Source of the DNA: Novosphingobium resinovorum
Lineage (GTDB): Bacteria; Pseudomonadota; Alphaproteobacteria; Sphingomonadales; Sphingomonadaceae
DNA: 64,000 bases
NCBI RefSeq assembly: GCF_001742225.1
Contig: NZ_CP017075.1
Coordinates: 2,976,001 to 3,040,000, forward strand
Direction: 5' to 3'
Part shown: positions 11,586 to 19,325 of the stretch, one piece after another
Numbering within the stretch: the stretch's first letter is position 1
Layout: every line of letters starts with the position of its first letter
Position numbers and translations under genes: made by a program
The notes under the pieces: model-generated
Database searches by the model: none
What the model was told of the DNA's origin: nothing
The model's input: only the letters and a program-made list of their open reading frames with translations

Positions 11586-12095
11586 TTAGCCCTCGCTCCC
11601 CCACTGCAGCGTATGCGGATCGCCCAGCGTCACCAGCCGCCGCAGCGAGGCGCGCGCCAGACGCTCCGTCTCCACCTTGCGCCGGGCGGCGGCAAGCTGG
11701 CGCAGGGGAGCGGGGCGCAGGATTTCCGCGTCGTAGCCATCGGCCACGATCACCCCGCAACTGTCGGGCAGGAACGCCTCGCTCTCAAGCGGGCTGCGGT
11801 CCAGCAAAGGAGAGAGCCCCCAGTAGAACCGGTCGCAGTAGTCGAGATAGTCGGTCCACTTGCCGTCGCCGAGCAGGTCCGCGCGCGCCACCTTGATCTC
11901 GACGATGATGACGTGCCCCTTGGCGTCGATCCCCATGAGATCGGCCCGCCGCCCACAGCGCAGCGGCATTTCCGGCATGCACCAGATGCCGTTGCGGGCG
12001 AACAGCCGGGCGATCCCGCGAGCCACGTCCACGGCGGTATGCCCATGCGAAGGGGCGAGGGAGAGCGAATCAGCTTCGGCCATGATCGCCATCAT
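11586..12095 (-). CDS. mmcB: MmcB-family DNA repair protein (putative endonuclease)
   Basis: Small PD-(D/E)XK-like protein of the MmcB family, implicated in mitomycin C resistance in Caulobacter. Visible core elements are ARLFARNGIWCMPEMPL, RRADLMGIDAKGHVIIVEIKVARADLLGD (the D...EIK nuclease-like signature) and YLDYCDRFYWG. Starts at 12095, 12092 or 12083 are possible. The last (MAEADSL) leaves room for the LexA box just upstream. The gene is single and ends before a palindrome. SOS regulation is strongly suggested by the operator at 12098-12112. Confidence 0.9.
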   Translation of the reverse strand: MMAIMAEADSLSLAPSHGHTAVDVARGIARLFARNGIWCMPEMPLRCGRRADLMGIDAKGHVIIVEIKVARADLLGDGKWTDYLDYCDRFYWGLSPLLDRSPLESEAFLPDSCGVIVADGYDAEILRPAPLRQLAAARRKVETERLARASLRRLVTLGDPHTLQWGSEG

Positions 12096-12097
12096 AG

Positions 12098-12112
12098 GAA
12101 CATATCGAGAAC
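12098..12112 (-). promoter_or_regulatory. LexA (SOS) box upstream of mmcB
   Basis: The plus strand reads GAAC-ATATCGA-GAAC, so the gene strand reads GTTC-N7-GTTC, the direct-repeat LexA operator of alphaproteobacteria. It lies 3 to 15 bases before the possible mmcB starts. mmcB is a known LexA target in Caulobacter, so site and gene support each other. Confidence 0.88.
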
Positions 12113-12174
12113 TGACAAGTCATCGCATTTGGCGCTGGCAAGCCCCGCTTCCGTCTGCTAACCGCGCTGGCACT

Positions 12175-12249
<75 letters not shown>

Positions 12250-12466
12250 AAAAAAATCGAGGAAAGCCAAGTAGTTGGCGGAAATCGACGGAAGCATGAA
12301 AACCGCTCTCTGGGTCGCGGAAGCACCACGGAAGCAAACTTGAAGGAGGTTGTAGAGCGCGAACGGCGGAATTTGGCAGGCTTCGGACCTGCACAAAGAG
12401 CGCCGATTCGAGAATATGGTTTCGGGATTGACCCTGCTCAATCGCGGATACTATCTGAACATTGAT

Positions 12467-12543
12467 GCACCCGTAGCTCAGCTGGATAGAGTGACGGCCT
12501 CCGAAGCCGTAGGTCACAGGTTCGAATCCTGTCGGGTGCGCCA
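12467..12543 (+). tRNA. tRNA-Arg (anticodon CCG)
   Basis: Complete cloverleaf: acceptor GCACCCG/CGGGTGC, D arm GCTCAGCTGGATAGAGT, anticodon stem ACGGC/GCCGT with loop CTCCGAA (CCG, reads CGG) and T arm ACAGG-TTCGAAT-CCTGT, with an encoded CCA at 12541-12543. Its anticodon stem differs from that of the broken copy upstream (ACGGC instead of CTGCC). This suggests it arrived with a mobile element and now replaces the original gene. Confidence 0.95.
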
Positions 12544-12795
12544 TTCCGGTACACATTTCTGAACGTTTTCACCCGAATTTGCCGAAGCCGCCACTGCGGC
12601 ATTGAGCACATCCTTGCTGCCGACGATCCGGATACGGTCGGCATCGACCTCGACCTTCGAGATGAGAGATCGCAGCCACGCCTTGCGCGCAGGGTTTTCT
12701 GCCGAATCGAGAATGTCCGTCATGAGGTCGGAGAACGCCGTGATTTTGGCCGGATCGATCACGGTGTCATCGCCCGACTGGACACGAGCCCGCTC
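12514..12795 (-). pseudogene. Serine recombinase/integrase, C-terminal remnant
   Basis: About 90 codons read DDTVIDPAKITAFSDLMTD, LDSAENPARKAWLRSL and KVEVDADRIRIVGSKDVL. This is the C-terminal segment of large serine recombinases that sit next to their attachment sites. The rest of the protein is missing: at about 12795 the sequence switches to an IS21 istA fragment. The reading frame ends inside the antisense of the tRNA-Arg, so the recombinase gene abutted the tRNA, as expected for a tRNA-targeting integrase. Confidence 0.7.
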
Positions 12796-12922
12796 AAAAC
12801 AGCATCTCATGGGTCTGGAGCAGATAGGCCCGCACCATAAAGGCCCGGCTGTAGCAGAGCTTGGTATGGGCTACCTGGAGCTTGATCCGCTCGCCCCCGA
12901 TCAGCGCCCAGTCCTCGCTCCA
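12796..12922 (-). pseudogene. istA: istA (IS21 element 1), internal part after the insertion
   Basis: This frame reads WSEDWALIGGERIKL, then QVAHTKLCYSRAFMVRAYL and LQTHEMLF. It joins in frame to the GEAFQFD end at 14481 if the intervening element is removed. It belongs to the catalytic core of IstA. It ends at LF, where the sequence changes to the recombinase remnant, so the rest of istA and all of istB were lost. Confidence 0.82.
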
Positions 12923-13001
12923 GATCCCATGGGGATGAAAGACGGCCGATACTCAGCCAGAGTGAGGCAGACTATTTCCTCGGTTTTACGGAGTGCACTT
13001 T

Positions 13002-14174
13002 ATGGACACGGTACAAAATTCCGAAGCATCAACTGCTCTCGGCAGCGATTTCGCCGCGATTTTCGTCTCGCTGGAACTCAGTCGCTCGACCTGGCTTGTA
13101 ACGTCAACCTCGCCCGGCAGCGGCGGTAAAATGTCGAAGCACTCTGTGAAAGGCGGCGATATGGCCGCATTGTTGGAACGCTTCACACAGCTTCAGTCGA
13201 GAACGAAGGCCCGAACTGGCGTTGAATATCCGGTGATAACGATCCAAGAAGCAGGACTCGATGGCTTCTGGATACACCGTGCTTTGCAGGCCAACGCCAT
13301 TGAAAGTCATGTCGTGGATCCCGCTTCTGTGGCCGTTTCCCGCAGAAGCCGGCGTGCCAAGACAGACAAGTTAGACGGCGAAGCCTTGGTCAGAACGTTG
13401 CTGGCCTACAAACGCGGTGAACCTCGAGTTTGCGCCATGGTGAAAGTGCCGGAACCTGAGCAAGAAGATCGACGCCGCATCTGCAGAGAGCGCAAGGTTC
13501 TGATCGCCGAGCGCATCAAGCACGTCAATCGCATCAAGGGCCTTCTTTTTGCTCAGGGCATCAGCGACTACAGACCCGTGCGCAGCGACCGCCGTCAACG
13601 ATTGGAGGCACTCGCCACAGGCGATGGTCGTCCTCTGCCACCTCACGTCAAAATGCAAATTGGCCGTGAGTTGGACCGCCTCGAACTATTGCTGGACCAA
13701 ATTGTGGTCGTCGAGCGGGAACGGGATGCATTGCTGTTCATGCAAGAAAATTCCGACACCGCCAAACCCGCGTCCATCCAGATGCTTCTCCATCTCCGGG
13801 GCCTTGGCACCGAGTTTGTTGCAATCCTCTGGGGTGAAGGGCTTTTCCGCCACTTCGATAATCGAAGACAAGTGGCGGCCTATGCCGGATTGGCGCCCTC
13901 TCCATGGCAGAGCGGCACAATCGATCGGGACCAAGGGGTCTCCAAAGCCGGCAATGCGCGACTACGAACTACAATGATCCAATTGGCGTGGCTGTGGGTG
14001 CGGCACCAGCCATGCTCGGCATTGACGATCTGGTTCAAGGCGAGAGTAGAGTCCAATAATGGGCGCATGAAAAAGAGCACGATTGTCGCGCTGGCCCGGA
14101 AGCTGTTGGTCGCCTTGTGGAAATACGTGACAGCTGGTGTCGTAATCGAGGGTGCCAGTATGAAAACAGCATGA
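13002..14174 (+). CDS. IS110-family transposase (IS1111 type)
   Basis: DEDD recombinase of 390 residues with the N-terminal RuvC-like domain (FAAIFVSLELSRSTWLVT, VVDPASVAVSRRSRRAKTDKLDGEAL) and the C-terminal Transposase_20 domain (LLHLRGLGTEFVAILW, RQVAAYAGLAPSPWQSGTIDRDQGVSKAGNAR). The ATG at 13002 is preceded by ACGGAG at a good distance, while a GTG at 12993 is the alternative. The reading frame is complete, so the element may be active. It works with the RNA predicted from its 3' non-coding end. Confidence 0.93.
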   Translation: MDTVQNSEASTALGSDFAAIFVSLELSRSTWLVTSTSPGSGGKMSKHSVKGGDMAALLERFTQLQSRTKARTGVEYPVITIQEAGLDGFWIHRALQANAIESHVVDPASVAVSRRSRRAKTDKLDGEALVRTLLAYKRGEPRVCAMVKVPEPEQEDRRRICRERKVLIAERIKHVNRIKGLLFAQGISDYRPVRSDRRQRLEALATGDGRPLPPHVKMQIGRELDRLELLLDQIVVVERERDALLFMQENSDTAKPASIQMLLHLRGLGTEFVAILWGEGLFRHFDNRRQVAAYAGLAPSPWQSGTIDRDQGVSKAGNARLRTTMIQLAWLWVRHQPCSALTIWFKARVESNNGRMKKSTIVALARKLLVALWKYVTAGVVIEGASMKTA

Positions 14175-14230
14175 GGATGGGTTTGTCAGCTATTTTAATC
14201 TCCCGGGACTGATCAATTCCGGGCGGATCC

Positions 14231-14370
14231 AGGTGGGCGAGCCGCAGTTCGATTTGGCCTAAACCGCCGTGCTCCAGTATGGCCCCGTCCTCCTGAGCCT
14301 CAGCCGCAACGTAAGCGGGATAAGGGTGCAGCTGTTTCGAACAGCGACCGTATGTGAGTTTGCACCGGCG
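14231..14370 (+). ncRNA. Predicted bridge RNA (seekRNA) of IS1111-type element 1
   Basis: Non-coding DNA downstream of the transposase. CAGTTCGATT (14245-14254) matches the left half of the istA target (CAGTTCGACT, one C/T change that allows G-U pairing). GCTCCAGT (14271-14278) matches the other target strand at 12917-12922 plus 14481-14482. A hairpin TGGC/GCCG lies between them. Next come GGGAT (14317-14321), matching one element end, the hairpin GCTGTT-TCG-AACAGC (14331-14345), and ATGTGAG (14352-14358), matching the other end (14475-14481). Two loops, each with two guides around a hairpin, is the expected design. Exact RNA ends are unknown. Confidence 0.65.
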
Positions 14371-14480
14371 AGGGAAACACGCCCGTGCTGGAGAAAAGGC
14401 TCAGACCATGGATGCCGAAATAGCGATGGAAAGGAACACGCCAACGGAAAACGATTCTTGACCATTCTCTCCCCATGTGA

Positions 14481-14896
14481 GTCGAACTGGAAAGCTTCGC
14501 CGGGTTCAAAAGCAAGAGGAACGAAAACGCCCTTGCCGCTCACATTCTGCTCGCGCTGGCGTTCCTCTTTCCATCGACGGGCAAAGGCCGCCACACGGCC
14601 ATAAGAGCCTTCGAAACCCAGGCTCACCAGATCGGCAGATGAATCTGCTTGACCGTACGCCTCTGCTTGCGAGGCTTACGACTCTCGGCCTTCAGCCAGC
14701 CCGACAGCTTCTCGGCAAAAGTATCGATCTTGCTTGGTCGATCCGGCACATGAAACTTCGGCTCAATCGTATCGGTCCGAAGGTATTTGCGAATGGTATT
14801 CCGGGACAGGCCGGTGCGCCGTGCAATCTCCCGGATCGATAAACCGTCCCGGAAATGCCAGCGCCGGATAACGCTCAAAAACGCCATGTCCAACAC
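14481..14896 (-). pseudogene. istA: istA (IS21 element 1), N-terminal part, frameshifted
   Basis: It begins MLDMAFLSVIRRWHFRDGLS with the helix-turn-helix IREIARRTGLSRNTIRKYL, as in IstA transposases. At about 14630 the frame shifts between RTVKQIH and ADLVSLGFEGSYGRV. The protein then continues to GEAFQFD, where the IS1111-type element interrupts it. It continues at 12922 with WSEDWALIGGERI. Confidence 0.82.
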
Positions 14897-15048
14897 TCCT
14901 GAATCTCCCGCCCAAAACGAGCAGGATAGCGTTCAAACATGGGTCACTTCTCAGTGGAAAAATCTCCCTGAATGGAGTGAACCCCTGGGACTGGACCAGC
15001 GAGGAAGAAAAGCTGATACGCTCTGTGGGCCTTGAATGGAGAAGGTCC

Positions 15049-15411
15049 ATGTCACCAAGAGGTCCCTACCGCCGTCACTCGATGCAGTTCAAGCTGCAGC
15101 TTTGCCAGGACATCCGCAATGGCGCCATCGGGCGCCGAGACGCGCAGCGCACCTATAGAGTTTCCGCCAATCTCATCCAGCTCTGGCTGTCCCAGTTCGA
15201 TCGTGGCGAACTCAATCAGGAAGAAGCCGAAGCAAGCGTCGTTGCGGAATACGAGGGCCGCATTGCAGCTCTTGAGCGCAAGGTCGGGCAACTGACCATG
15301 GAACTGGACATGGCCAAAAAAACGCCGCGCCCCTCTCCAGGACCCGTCAACGAGAACTCATCGATTGTCACCGGCCCGCGCATTGCTCCATCAGGCGGGG
15401 ATGCCAAATGA
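15049..15411 (+). CDS. IS3-family transposase OrfA
   Basis: DNA-binding subunit of 120 residues from the ATG at 15049. A helix-turn-helix region ([36 protein letters not shown]) is followed by a leucine-zipper-like coiled coil ([20 protein letters not shown]). The stop codon overlaps the OrfB start (ATGA). An A7 run at 15316-15322 within MAKK lies upstream of an open -1 frame, so programmed frameshifting would produce the OrfAB fusion transposase. Confidence 0.9.
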
Positions 15412-16202
15412 TCGGTCTTCCACGGAGTACATTCTATTACCGCCCCAACAAGTCCAGCGGGATCGCAGATACGGAAGTGGTCGAGCTGATAGAGGCCATT
15501 CAGGATGATCTGCCTGGCTATGGCTATCGTCGCATCACCCACGAATTGCACCGCCGCGGTCATAGGATCAATCACAAAAGGATCGCCAGGATCATGAGGG
15601 AGAACGGATTGGGGATTAAGCCGCGAAAGCGGTTCGTGAAAACGACCGACAGCGCTCATACCTCGCCGATCTACCCGAACCTATACCGCAACATCATCCC
15701 GGAGCGGCCTGATATGGCATGGGTAGCTGATCTGACCTATATCCGCCTTGCACGCGGCTTCTGCTATCTCGCGGTCATTCTCGATGCGTGCAGCCGTAAG
15801 GTGGTCGGCTATGCCTTGTCCAGGCAGATCGATACGTCGCTGACCCTGGCAGCGCTGCAATCTGCATTGGAAAACAGAAAACCACCTCCCGGGTGCATTC
15901 ACCATTCGGACCGCGGCTGCCAATACGCAAGCGAGCGGTATCGCAATGAGCTTGAAGCCGCCGGACTGCGGGGCTCGATGAGCGCCATCGGCAATCCTTA
16001 TCATAACGCGCAGGCCGAGAGTTTCATGAAAACGCTCAAGGTCGAGGAGGTCTATCTCTGCGAATACGAAACCTTTACCGATGTCGTCGACAGGTTGCCA
16101 AGGTTCATCGAGGAAATCTACAATACCCGAAGGCTCCACTCCGCCCTTGGCTATCGCTCACCAGAGGAATTTGAAACCCAACTCGCCCAACAGGCGGCTT
16201 AG
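15408..16202 (+). CDS. IS3-family transposase OrfB (DDE integrase domain)
   Basis: Catalytic subunit of 264 residues. HTH_21-type start ([27 protein letters not shown]) and an rve integrase core with the DDE triad: D in [11 protein letters not shown] in [13 protein letters not shown], and E in [14 protein letters not shown]. The -1 frame is open upstream to the A7 run in orfA, so the active form is probably the OrfAB fusion. Confidence 0.94.
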
Positions 16203-17061: not shown

Positions 17062-17832
17062 TCAGCCTGCCTTTCGGGCGCGGCTTTGGGCGAGACGGTA
17101 GCTTTCGCCGTTCATCTCGAGGATGTTGACGTGGTGGGTGATGCGATCGAGCAGTGCGCCGGTCAGACGCTCGGAGCCCAACGTCTCCGTCCATTCATCG
17201 AAAGGCAGATTGCTGGTGATCAGCGTCGCGCCGCGTTCGTAACGCTGCGAGATCAGCTCGAACAGCAGTTCCGCCCCGGTCTTGGAGAGCGGCACGAAGC
17301 CCAGCTCGTCGATGATGAGGAGCTTGTAGGTAGCCATCTGCTTCTGGAAGCGCAGAAGACGCCGTTCGTCGCGAGCCTCCATCATCTCGCTGACGAGAGC
17401 GGCGGCCGTGATAAAGCCGACTGCCAAGCCCTTCTGGCAGGCGGCCAGACCGAGACCGAGGGCGACATGAGTTTTGCCCGTGCCACTGGGGCCGAGCGCG
17501 ATGACGTTCTCGCGGCGCTCGATCCATTCACAGCGCGCCAATTCCAATACCTGCATCTTGTTGAGCTTCGGAATGGCGGTGAAGTCGAAGCTGTCGAGGC
17601 TTTTGACGACCGGGAACTTCGCCGCCTTGATACGGCGTTCGACCTTGCGGCGGTCCCGCTCGATCATCTCCCGCTCGGCAAGACGAGCAAGGTATCCGAC
17701 ATGGTCCACGCCTTCGGACGCGCATAGCCGGGCCAGCTTCTGGTGCTCGCGCTGGAAGGTCGGCAGCTTGAGGGTCTTGAGGTAATGGGAAAGCAAAATC
17801 GCAGGGGGATTGTCAGGCGCTTCGGCGCTCAT
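17062..17832 (-). CDS. istB: IS21 helper ATPase IstB
   Basis: AAA+ ATPase of 256 residues from the ATG at 17832, which overlaps the istA stop (ATGA). The start at 17961 would add 43 residues inside istA and is rejected. The N-terminal region (LLSHYLKTLKLPTFQREHQK) is IstB-like. It is followed by Walker A GPSGTGKTHVA, Walker B LLIIDELGFVPLS, sensor 1 ITSNLPFDEW and the arginine-finger region GALLDRITHHVNILEMNGESYR. It assists IstA in target selection. Confidence 0.95.
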   Translation of the reverse strand: MSAEAPDNPPAILLSHYLKTLKLPTFQREHQKLARLCASEGVDHVGYLARLAEREMIERDRRKVERRIKAAKFPVVKSLDSFDFTAIPKLNKMQVLELARCEWIERRENVIALGPSGTGKTHVALGLGLAACQKGLAVGFITAAALVSEMMEARDERRLLRFQKQMATYKLLIIDELGFVPLSKTGAELLFELISQRYERGATLITSNLPFDEWTETLGSERLTGALLDRITHHVNILEMNGESYRLAQSRARKAG

Positions 17833-19325
17833 GCCGCTTCTCCTGCATCCGATGACAGGAGGCGCATGTATGCCTTCGCCGACGTCGTCTCGACCGTCGC
17901 CCTTGGCAGGTAAGGATAGATGGACAGGTCCAGCCGTGGCGGCCGGCGCTCCACCCGACACAGGAGAAGATGCTTGACGGCGTCGAAGCTGATCGCGCCG
18001 AGTTGGAGGGCCTGCTTCACCGCCCCGTGCAGATCGACGAGATCGAAGCTTTCCAGCAAACGCAGCACCTGCACATACTCACGGCGGCCCTGCTTGGCCA
18101 TACGTGCTTCCATCAGGCGGCGCAGCGTGGCGAACTCTTCGGGCAATTCCCATCCCTGAAGAGGGGCGGCCTGATCCAATGCATTGATCTTCTGCTCGAT
18201 CAGCGGCAGGTAATGGATGGGATCAAAGACGACGTCTTCCCGTTCCCAGCTCCGGGGATGACGAGCAATGATCTCGCCGCGGCAGCCGATCACCACCTCG
18301 TCGACATAACCCCGGACCCAGACTTGCCTGTGGCCATAGGCGACCGGAACAGAGTAGTCGTTGGTCTTGTAGCGGACCAGGGATTGCGCCGTCACTCTGG
18401 CGCTGGCCTGGTCACAGGCATCGAACGGCGAAGCCGGCAATGCGCGCATGGCGGCGAGATCGCGCTGCAGCCGCTCTCCGATCGTCTCGCTCTCGCCGCG
18501 CAGCCTGTCGTGCTGGCGCTTGCGGCACTGCTCTTCCAGCCAGGTGTTGAACACATCCCATGTCGTGAACCGTGGGATCGGAACCATGAAGTTGCGACGA
18601 GCATAGCCAACGAGGCCCTCGACATTCCCCTTGTCGTTGCCCTTGCCGGGGCGACCGTAGCGATCCCGGATCAGGTAGTGGGACAGGAAGCCGCTGAACA
18701 GCGCCGCTCGCTTGCGCGTGCCGTCGGGCAAGATCTTGACCACCAGGCAACGATCATTGTCGTAGACGATCGATTGCGGCACGGCCCCGAAGAAGGCGAA
18801 CGCATGGATGTGGCCATCGACCCACGCCTCAGCCACCGCAGCGGGATAGGCTCGCACATAGCAGGCGTCGCTATGCGGCAGGTCGAGCACAAAGAAACGG
18901 GCTTTCTGCTCGACACCGCCGATCACCACCATCGCCTCGCCGAAGTCCGCCTGTGCATGGCCGGGCGGATGCGACAGCGGCACGAACATCTCCTGGCAGC
19001 GCTGCTCTCGCTCGCGCATGTAATCCTTGATGATCGTGTAGCCGCCGGTGAACCCGCATTCGGCACGCAGCCGGTCGAACACTCGCTTGGCCGTATGGCG
19101 CTGCTTGCGCGGAACCGTCAGGTCCTCATCCAGCCAATGATCGATGGTCGAAACAAATGCATCCAGCTTCGGACGTCGGATCGGTGACCGGCGCTGATAG
19201 CCGGGAGGAGTCGAATACGACAGCATCTTGGCAACGCTGTCGCGCGATATGTTGAAATGCTTCGCTGCCTGACGCCGGCTCATCCCTTCCGAGACGGCCA
19301 GGCGAACCTTCAGATAAAGTTCCAC
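17829..19325 (-). CDS. istA: IS21 transposase IstA
   Basis: DDE transposase of 498 residues, complete. N-terminal HTH (VSEGMSRRQAAKHFNISRDS), integrase core with HPPGHAQADFGEA, SIVYDNDRC and KGNDKGNVEGLVGYARRNFM (the D, D and E positions), and a C-terminal beta-barrel region (ARVTAQSLVRYKTNDYSVP, HPRSWEREDVVFDPIHYLP). It is not closely similar to the istA remnant of element 1, so two different IS21 types have been here. Confidence 0.95.
   Translation of the reverse strand: MELYLKVRLAVSEGMSRRQAAKHFNISRDSVAKMLSYSTPPGYQRRSPIRRPKLDAFVSTIDHWLDEDLTVPRKQRHTAKRVFDRLRAECGFTGGYTIIKDYMREREQRCQEMFVPLSHPPGHAQADFGEAMVVIGGVEQKARFFVLDLPHSDACYVRAYPAAVAEAWVDGHIHAFAFFGAVPQSIVYDNDRCLVVKILPDGTRKRAALFSGFLSHYLIRDRYGRPGKGNDKGNVEGLVGYARRNFMVPIPRFTTWDVFNTWLEEQCRKRQHDRLRGESETIGERLQRDLAAMRALPASPFDACDQASARVTAQSLVRYKTNDYSVPVAYGHRQVWVRGYVDEVVIGCRGEIIARHPRSWEREDVVFDPIHYLPLIEQKINALDQAAPLQGWELPEEFATLRRLMEARMAKQGRREYVQVLRLLESFDLVDLHGAVKQALQLGAISFDAVKHLLLCRVERRPPRLDLSIYPYLPRATVETTSAKAYMRLLSSDAGEAA

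Follow-up and report, generated by a model that had tools for sequence, protein, structure and literature searches.

How does an insertion sequence come to lie at one particular point in the coding sequence of another transposable element? The question is raised by a window of 64,000 nucleotides of the Novosphingobium resinovorum genome (contig NZ_CP017075.1, positions 2,976,001 to 3,040,000), in which an element of the IS110/IS1111 type interrupts the istA gene of an IS21 element. Coordinates below count from the first letter of this window. The transposase gene of the inserted element has 80 nt of non-coding sequence to the left of its ATG at 13002, versus 305 nt to the right of its stop (the 3' non-coding region, NCR). 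We consider it very probable (roughly 0.95), judging by sequence comparison among related elements, that this NCR encodes a bridge RNA (seekRNA) with which the DEDD transposase of the element chooses its insertion site.

The insertion site in istA

The element is 1558 bp long when the AG core is counted once, at the left end; the two copies of the core lie at 12922-12923 and 14480-14481. Its parts and the adjoining gene remnant are as follows.

12922..14479, plus strand: insertion sequence, IS110/IS1111-type, delimited by its ends and by uninterrupted istA homologues
12922..12928, plus strand: left terminal extension AGATCCC, 7 bp, with the AG core inside
12929..12935, plus strand: left sub-terminal inverted repeat ATGGGGA
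13002..14174, plus strand: transposase gene, 390 aa from ATG (an in-frame GTG at 12993 would give 393 aa)
14470..14476, plus strand: right sub-terminal inverted repeat TCCCCAT
14477..14479, plus strand: right terminal extension GTG, 3 bp
14482..14896, minus strand: N-terminal part of the interrupted IS21 istA, identified by annotated istA/IS21 homologues; frame also split near 14624-14627

The element interrupts the minus-strand istA across an AG/CT core. The left flank ends in CTCGCTCC and the right flank begins with TCGAACTGG. The original prediction was that removing the element across this core restores GEAFQFD-WSEDWA in istA, and the flanks translate accordingly: with one AG kept, the minus strand reads GEAFQFD, ending at the right junction, and then WSEDWA, starting at the left junction. 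The string QFDWSED is uninterrupted in all five plasmid istA homologues that were fetched. At the 17-base target, one of the five is identical (plasmid L144), two differ by one base and two by three (14-17 of 17 bases alike); four of the five records carry an istA or IS21 transposase annotation at the homologous stretch, and L144 is without annotation there. Among 11 genomic istA loci, at least 25 of 27 target bases are present in eight, including four with all 27; one locus has 21 and two have 16. We read the programmed target as the stretch of istA that encodes QFD-WSE in an IS21-type transposase; related istA genes keep this string of residues. The genome holds one other exact copy of the 15-nt target (L116, about 1501-1515), which is unoccupied and lies within an open frame named by eye as racemase-like.

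A different IS110-family element lies beside istA in the Sphingopyxis plasmid L144 (1-858). It was considered as a second occupant of the same site and rejected, since the target there is unbroken. The istA of the window is also damaged away from the insertion: in addition to the split in the N-terminal frame, the frame to the left of the element (12797-12922) has only 42 residues before a stop and adjoins another open frame (12514-12810).

A predicted RNA with target and donor guides

The predicted RNA lies in the NCR. The interval originally put forward, 14231..14481, does contain the guide motifs and the hairpin between the donor guides; the element as a whole is longer, reaching from 12922 to 14479. 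In the predicted fold, a target loop comes first; after it, the stem 14296-14299/14398-14401 closes a multiloop in which the donor guides lie on either side of a hairpin. In order along the plus strand, the predicted features are as follows.

14222..14420, plus strand: predicted bridge RNA/seekRNA region, boundaries approximate; conserved covarying scaffold in 78 aligned NCRs
14235..14243, plus strand: target-loop stem, 5' strand (helix 1, pairs with 14281-14290); five of nine pairs changed on both sides
14245..14254, plus strand: target guide 1; matches own flank, covariation in relatives
14256..14268, plus strand: apical hairpin between the target guides, GG...CC (helix 2); 98.7% of cells paired
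14271..14278, plus strand: target guide 2; matches own flank, covariation in relatives
14281..14290, plus strand: target-loop stem, 3' strand (helix 1)
14296..14299, plus strand: donor-multiloop closing stem, 5' strand (helix 3, pairs with 14398-14401); four of four pairs changed on both sides
14317..14321, plus strand: right donor guide GGGAT, complementary to the top strand of the left end ATCCC
14331..14345, plus strand: hairpin GCTGTT-TCG-AACAGC between the donor guides (helix 5); two of three pairs changed on both sides
14352..14358, plus strand: left donor guide ATGTGAG; same sequence as the right end with its core, and changes along with that end across five variants

Conservation of this structure is seen in the covariation of the alignment. 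The consensus of the 78 NCRs has 24 pairs, 14 of them with two-sided changes. Consensus cells are paired in 94.6% of cases, versus 87.6% in column shuffles and at most 46% when the structure is slid along the alignment, and the covariation score is 0.273, versus 0.140 in shuffles and at most 0.095 in slid registers; the slid control leans in favour of the structure because the structure was derived from the same alignment. Helix 2 gives no covariation support because it is nearly invariant, and the fold of the donor loop is not fixed in detail because one helix, CGG (14316-14318) paired to CCG (14348-14350), shares bases with the donor guide and is almost constant. Folded as a single sequence, the window RNA is no more stable than its shuffles, of which 40 of 200 do as well or better (z -0.86). 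A search of 12000-15000 against Rfam detected no bridge RNA, and over the NCR no family at all; no sigma-70-like promoter was found in 14000-14500.

The two target guides had been proposed as matches to the two halves of the target, on opposite strands and around a small hairpin. They are complementary to both target strands around the core, and both would read the AG/CT core. The last TT of guide 1, CAGTTCGATT, reads the CT core with one U.G wobble and one pair, and guide 2, GCTCCAGT, comprises five bases of the left flank, then the AG core and a single base of the right flank. We scored seven right-half and six left-half positions, counting a wobble as half. The real insertion site reaches 12.5 of 13, a score attained by none of the 6801 further AG sites that the window has outside the element (maximum 11.0) and by none of 200,000 flank shuffles. 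The best guide-like windows across the NCR are these same two guides. All four guides lie where they were predicted, at 14245-14254, 14271-14278, 14317-14321 and 14352-14358, with the refinement that GGGAT stops short of the core.

In the multiloop that follows, GGGAT and ATGTGAG would pair with the left and right ends of the element, respectively. By analogy with IS110/IS1111 elements, as described in PMC11187229 and PMC11208160, the element would be excised as a circle with its ends abutted, a complex of RNA and transposase would hold the circle junction beside the target, and strands would be exchanged at the shared dinucleotide core. The base pairing and its covariation come from the present analysis; the steps that involve RNA and transposase together we infer from published relatives. 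Among these are members described in PMC11187229 as needing the NCR RNA for transposition, and in one IS1111 member, ISEc11, reprogrammed guides redirect insertion.

Guides, flanks and ends among relatives

If the guides choose the site, they should change with it in other copies, a check that had been suggested at the outset. Near-identical copies were not found: the genome holds the NCR once, an NCR match occurs in six of 396 genomes of the order (own genome included; the best other by E-value is 73% identical over part), and megablast of plasmids returned one partial match at 73%. Covariation was therefore tested on relatives whose transposases are 62-83% identical to that of the window. 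These comprise the best 80 of 236 found across species genomes, plus 22 places (including the window's own) from 148 related genomes. For loci with alignable transposase C-terminus and NCR, a left end was obtained at 91 and not at four. Ends were called by terminal motif and inverted repeat; for right ends the sub-terminal repeat was used, AG adding to the score, and the donor guide played no part. These rules were passed by 65 of the 91 rows (26 dropped), giving 57 distinct combinations of guides and site, the window's included, in 32 guide clusters.

Across the relatives, the guide slots are hypervariable within a conserved scaffold and match the flanks of each element's own insertion. The summed score over the 57 distinct rows is 605, versus a permutation maximum of 330, and over the 32 cluster representatives 329, versus a maximum of 196; none of 20,000 permutations reaches the observed sum in either case. 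Guide 1 scores on average 6.06 of 7 with its own right flank and 2.86 (sd 1.19) with the flanks of others, and guide 2 scores 4.55 of 6 with its own left flank and 1.85 (sd 1.10) with others. When ties are counted as failures, the first rank goes to an element's own flanks in no more than 30 of the 57 rows and 25 of the 32 clusters; the same target recurs in many of the rows.

Some representatives fit poorly: L039 in the left half (1.5 of 6), L089 in both halves (3.5 of 7 and 2.5 of 6), L022 in the right half (3.5) and L051 in the right half (3.0). Three others (L060, L015, L024) passed the end rules with right ends that are probably miscalled and were kept among the 32 clusters. A left flank is available for 23 of the dropped rows, and 20 of these score at least 4 of 6 against their own left half (L053 and L087 are one element). 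The misfits there are L043 (3.5), L098 (1.0), which is probably truncated at the left because it matched only from residue 115, and L096 (2.5 of 6), a second family element of the window's genome. That genome carries two further members of the family with other guides, L096 (66% identical) and the partial L103.

The donor guides can be compared with the ends of the elements in the same way. The left donor guide is identical to the final seven bases at the element's own right end, core included, in 59 of 65 rows, or in 52 of 57 when only distinct rows are counted, although only three N positions were free in this comparison, since the end filter demanded CAT (or CNAT) and then NNNAG. The variants are ATGTGAG, ATATAAG, ATACAAG, ATGTAAG and ATATGAG; each of the last three is represented by a single matching row. 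Among the five distinct misfits, L097 looks real, and L051, L060, L015 and L024 have doubtful right ends. On the other side, GGGAT fits left ends in ATCCC (29 rows) or, by wobble, in ATCCT (25 rows), and GGAAT fits ATTCC (seven rows, six of them from one genome). GGGAT is kept despite an ATGCC left end in three of 65 rows, and one further NCR is misaligned. The proposal that GGGAT and ATGTGAG match the two element ends around GCTGTT-TCG-AACAGC is consistent with these counts.

Copies that share guides within one genome bear on the same question from the other direction, because identical non-coding ends at unrelated targets had been named as the observation that would speak against guiding. 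The opposite is seen in Bradyrhizobium erythrophlei, where seven copies with one guide pair occupy separate sites. Their left halves end in ACGA or GCGA before the AG (4-5 of 6), and the six copies with a called right end continue with CAATCCA (7 of 7); the right end of the seventh, L067, is miscalled. In Microvirga calopogonii, three copies outside the 91 rows could be scored in the left half, with 2 (L026), 5 (L027) and 5 (L031) of 6, and L026 is a possible, doubtful exception. Three more copies of that species (L029, L030, L032) have no left flank, as the contig starts with the element in each case, and were left out.

Could matches of this kind arise without any guiding role? Each is only 5-10 nt long, and the fold of the window sequence alone is unremarkable, as would be expected if the matches were coincidental or had been selected by eye in a lengthy non-coding sequence. 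That explanation is already refuted by the permutations at the level of both rows and clusters, and by the window sites and shuffles, none of which attains the element's own score; we give it practically no weight. If the NCR had taken up pieces of target DNA from the flanks, by copying or capture, guide and site would likewise match. Against such capture, each guide takes its half from a different strand and occupies a fixed slot inside a covarying stem, the B. erythrophlei copies have identical guides at separate sites that share a target, and the donor guide follows the element's own end. Capture is very improbable.

A further alternative places recognition in the protein: the transposase itself would recognise target DNA, and the NCR would either act in cis as an end of the element or be a structured RNA with no link to targeting. 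Yet the guides track changes of target among elements whose transposases are 62-83% identical, and the published requirement for the NCR RNA (PMC11187229) likewise argues against it; we regard protein-only recognition as about as improbable as capture. The reading of the motifs as guides of a bridge RNA, as originally inferred, is the one supported by covariation with both the flanks and the elements' own ends.

Family placement, published relatives and a possible target preference

The transposase carries the domains of IS110-family DEDD enzymes, with PF02371 at 57.1 bits (cut-off 21.3), PF01548 at 28.6 bits, 0.4 below its cut-off of 29, and the NCBIfam model NF033542, 'IS110 family RNA-guided transposase', at 206.7 bits (cut-off 140). 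It is detectably related by sequence to the transposases of IS621 (8wt6, E 9.9e-6) and ISCro4. The one IS1111 reference compared, IS4321 of plasmid R751, has a transposase of 334 aa that aligns with the 390-aa enzyme of the window element across about 300 residues, at 25% identity (E 4e-8). IS4321 reportedly inserts in another mobile element, as Partridge and Hall are said to have described in 2003.

Most features that define the IS1111 type are present. The long NCR is downstream of the transposase gene and the left end is short. The sub-terminal repeats, ATGGGGA/TCCCCAT, are perfect over 7 bp, which is the lower bound of the 7-17 bp given in PMC11208160 and under the usual 11-13 bp of PMC11187229. 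From the latter paper we also take the rule of terminal extensions of 7 bp on the left and 3 bp on the right, which the window element follows (AGATCCC, GTG), an RNA order with the complement of the top strand 5' of that of the bottom strand, which is the order of 14245-14254 and 14271-14278, and the motif GL-P----S(t)G, which is found as GLAPSPWQSG at the C-terminal side of the transposase. The exception is transposase length: 390-393 aa is at least 40 aa longer than the 330-350 aa given there. On sequence grounds we file the element in the IS110 superfamily as IS1111-like. The original label 'IS1111-type' therefore holds for the side of the NCR, the repeats, the extensions, the guide order and the motif, and does not hold for the length of the transposase.

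The closest published parallels are the IS1111 seekRNA elements ISEc11, ISPa11, ISKpn4 and ISPst6, which, according to PMC11187229, share with the window element the downstream NCR, the guide order, the 7/3-bp extensions and the motif, as well as natural re-direction between relatives. Published seekRNAs measure 70-100 nt. The window element differs from them in its transposase of about 390 aa, its perfect 7-bp repeat and its target in istA coding sequence. Like the bridge RNA of IS621, an IS110-type element (PMC11208160), its target and donor guides each read both strands around a dinucleotide core. In the IS110 group, the RNA is mostly in the left end with the guide order reversed (PMC11208160, PMC11187229), whereas here it is in the right end and the right guide precedes the left. 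Donor guides within a multiloop are reported for many IS1111 members in PMC11208160. By DNA sequence, ISRel9 of Rhizobium etli (named from PLSDB annotation) is 67% identical across 90% of the query, a stretch that takes in most of the NCR.

The mechanism is already published, its kind known since 2024, and the window element is a well-supported further example. In a literature search of titles and the beginnings of abstracts, with subscription journals mostly outside its range, we found no paper on the istA target, the clade or ISRel9. What the element adds is a clean natural-covariation case for guide function, for both target and donor loops, in elements with transposases longer than the given IS1111 range. 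Its relatives amount to a natural collection of guides that have been re-aimed and whose targets can be read, a collection useful for pairing rules such as wobble tolerance and the reading of the core.

It is conceivable, and we put it forward tentatively as the less probable case, that this mainly alphaproteobacterial clade with transposases of about 390 aa may preferentially aim its guides at conserved codons in the transposase genes of other elements. Open pieces on the junction side have a transposase domain above the Pfam cut-off in six of 20 cases, versus none of 15 distant control pieces, where the 20 pieces are the author's choice from 52 of at least 80 aa and five of the 20 loci are without a control region. 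L060, L015, L028 and L024 were excluded from the junction pieces as miscalled. At the same 15 loci the counts are three for junction and zero for control, too few for a claim of enrichment, and a junction frame may not be a gene. The control pieces include one TniB match, below the cut-off. Locus L002 is probably also in istA, as its right flank has the identical nine bases and adjoins a helix-turn-helix piece. These junction pieces, the istA of the window and L002, set against the controls, are suggestive only. If such a preference is real, the clade would be spreading at the expense of other transposons, as a parasite guided by RNA and re-aimed through changes in its guides.

Several observations on neighbouring sequence may be added. 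Among the relatives, L019, L034, L064, L025, L036 and L089, which have other guides, adjoin open frames that carry transposase domains, namely DUF772, DDE_Tnp_1_3, IS66, DDE_Tnp_1_4 and HTH_Tnp_1. In the window, an IS3-like pair of open frames, the second with an rve domain, lies directly to the right of the istA remnant (14977-16202). A second IS21-type istA (Mu-transpos_C_2) with an open frame that looks istB-like by eye follows 2-3 kb away (17062-19325, minus strand), and ten other places in the genome, this second istA included, resemble the N-terminus of the interrupted istA at 33-41% identity. To the left of the element lie a degenerate tRNA-like copy (12175-12247), which at 22.6 bits stays below the cut-off, and after it an intact tRNA-Arg(CCG) (12467-12543). 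The two have their 5' part in common, possibly because the attachment site was duplicated when an element integrated.
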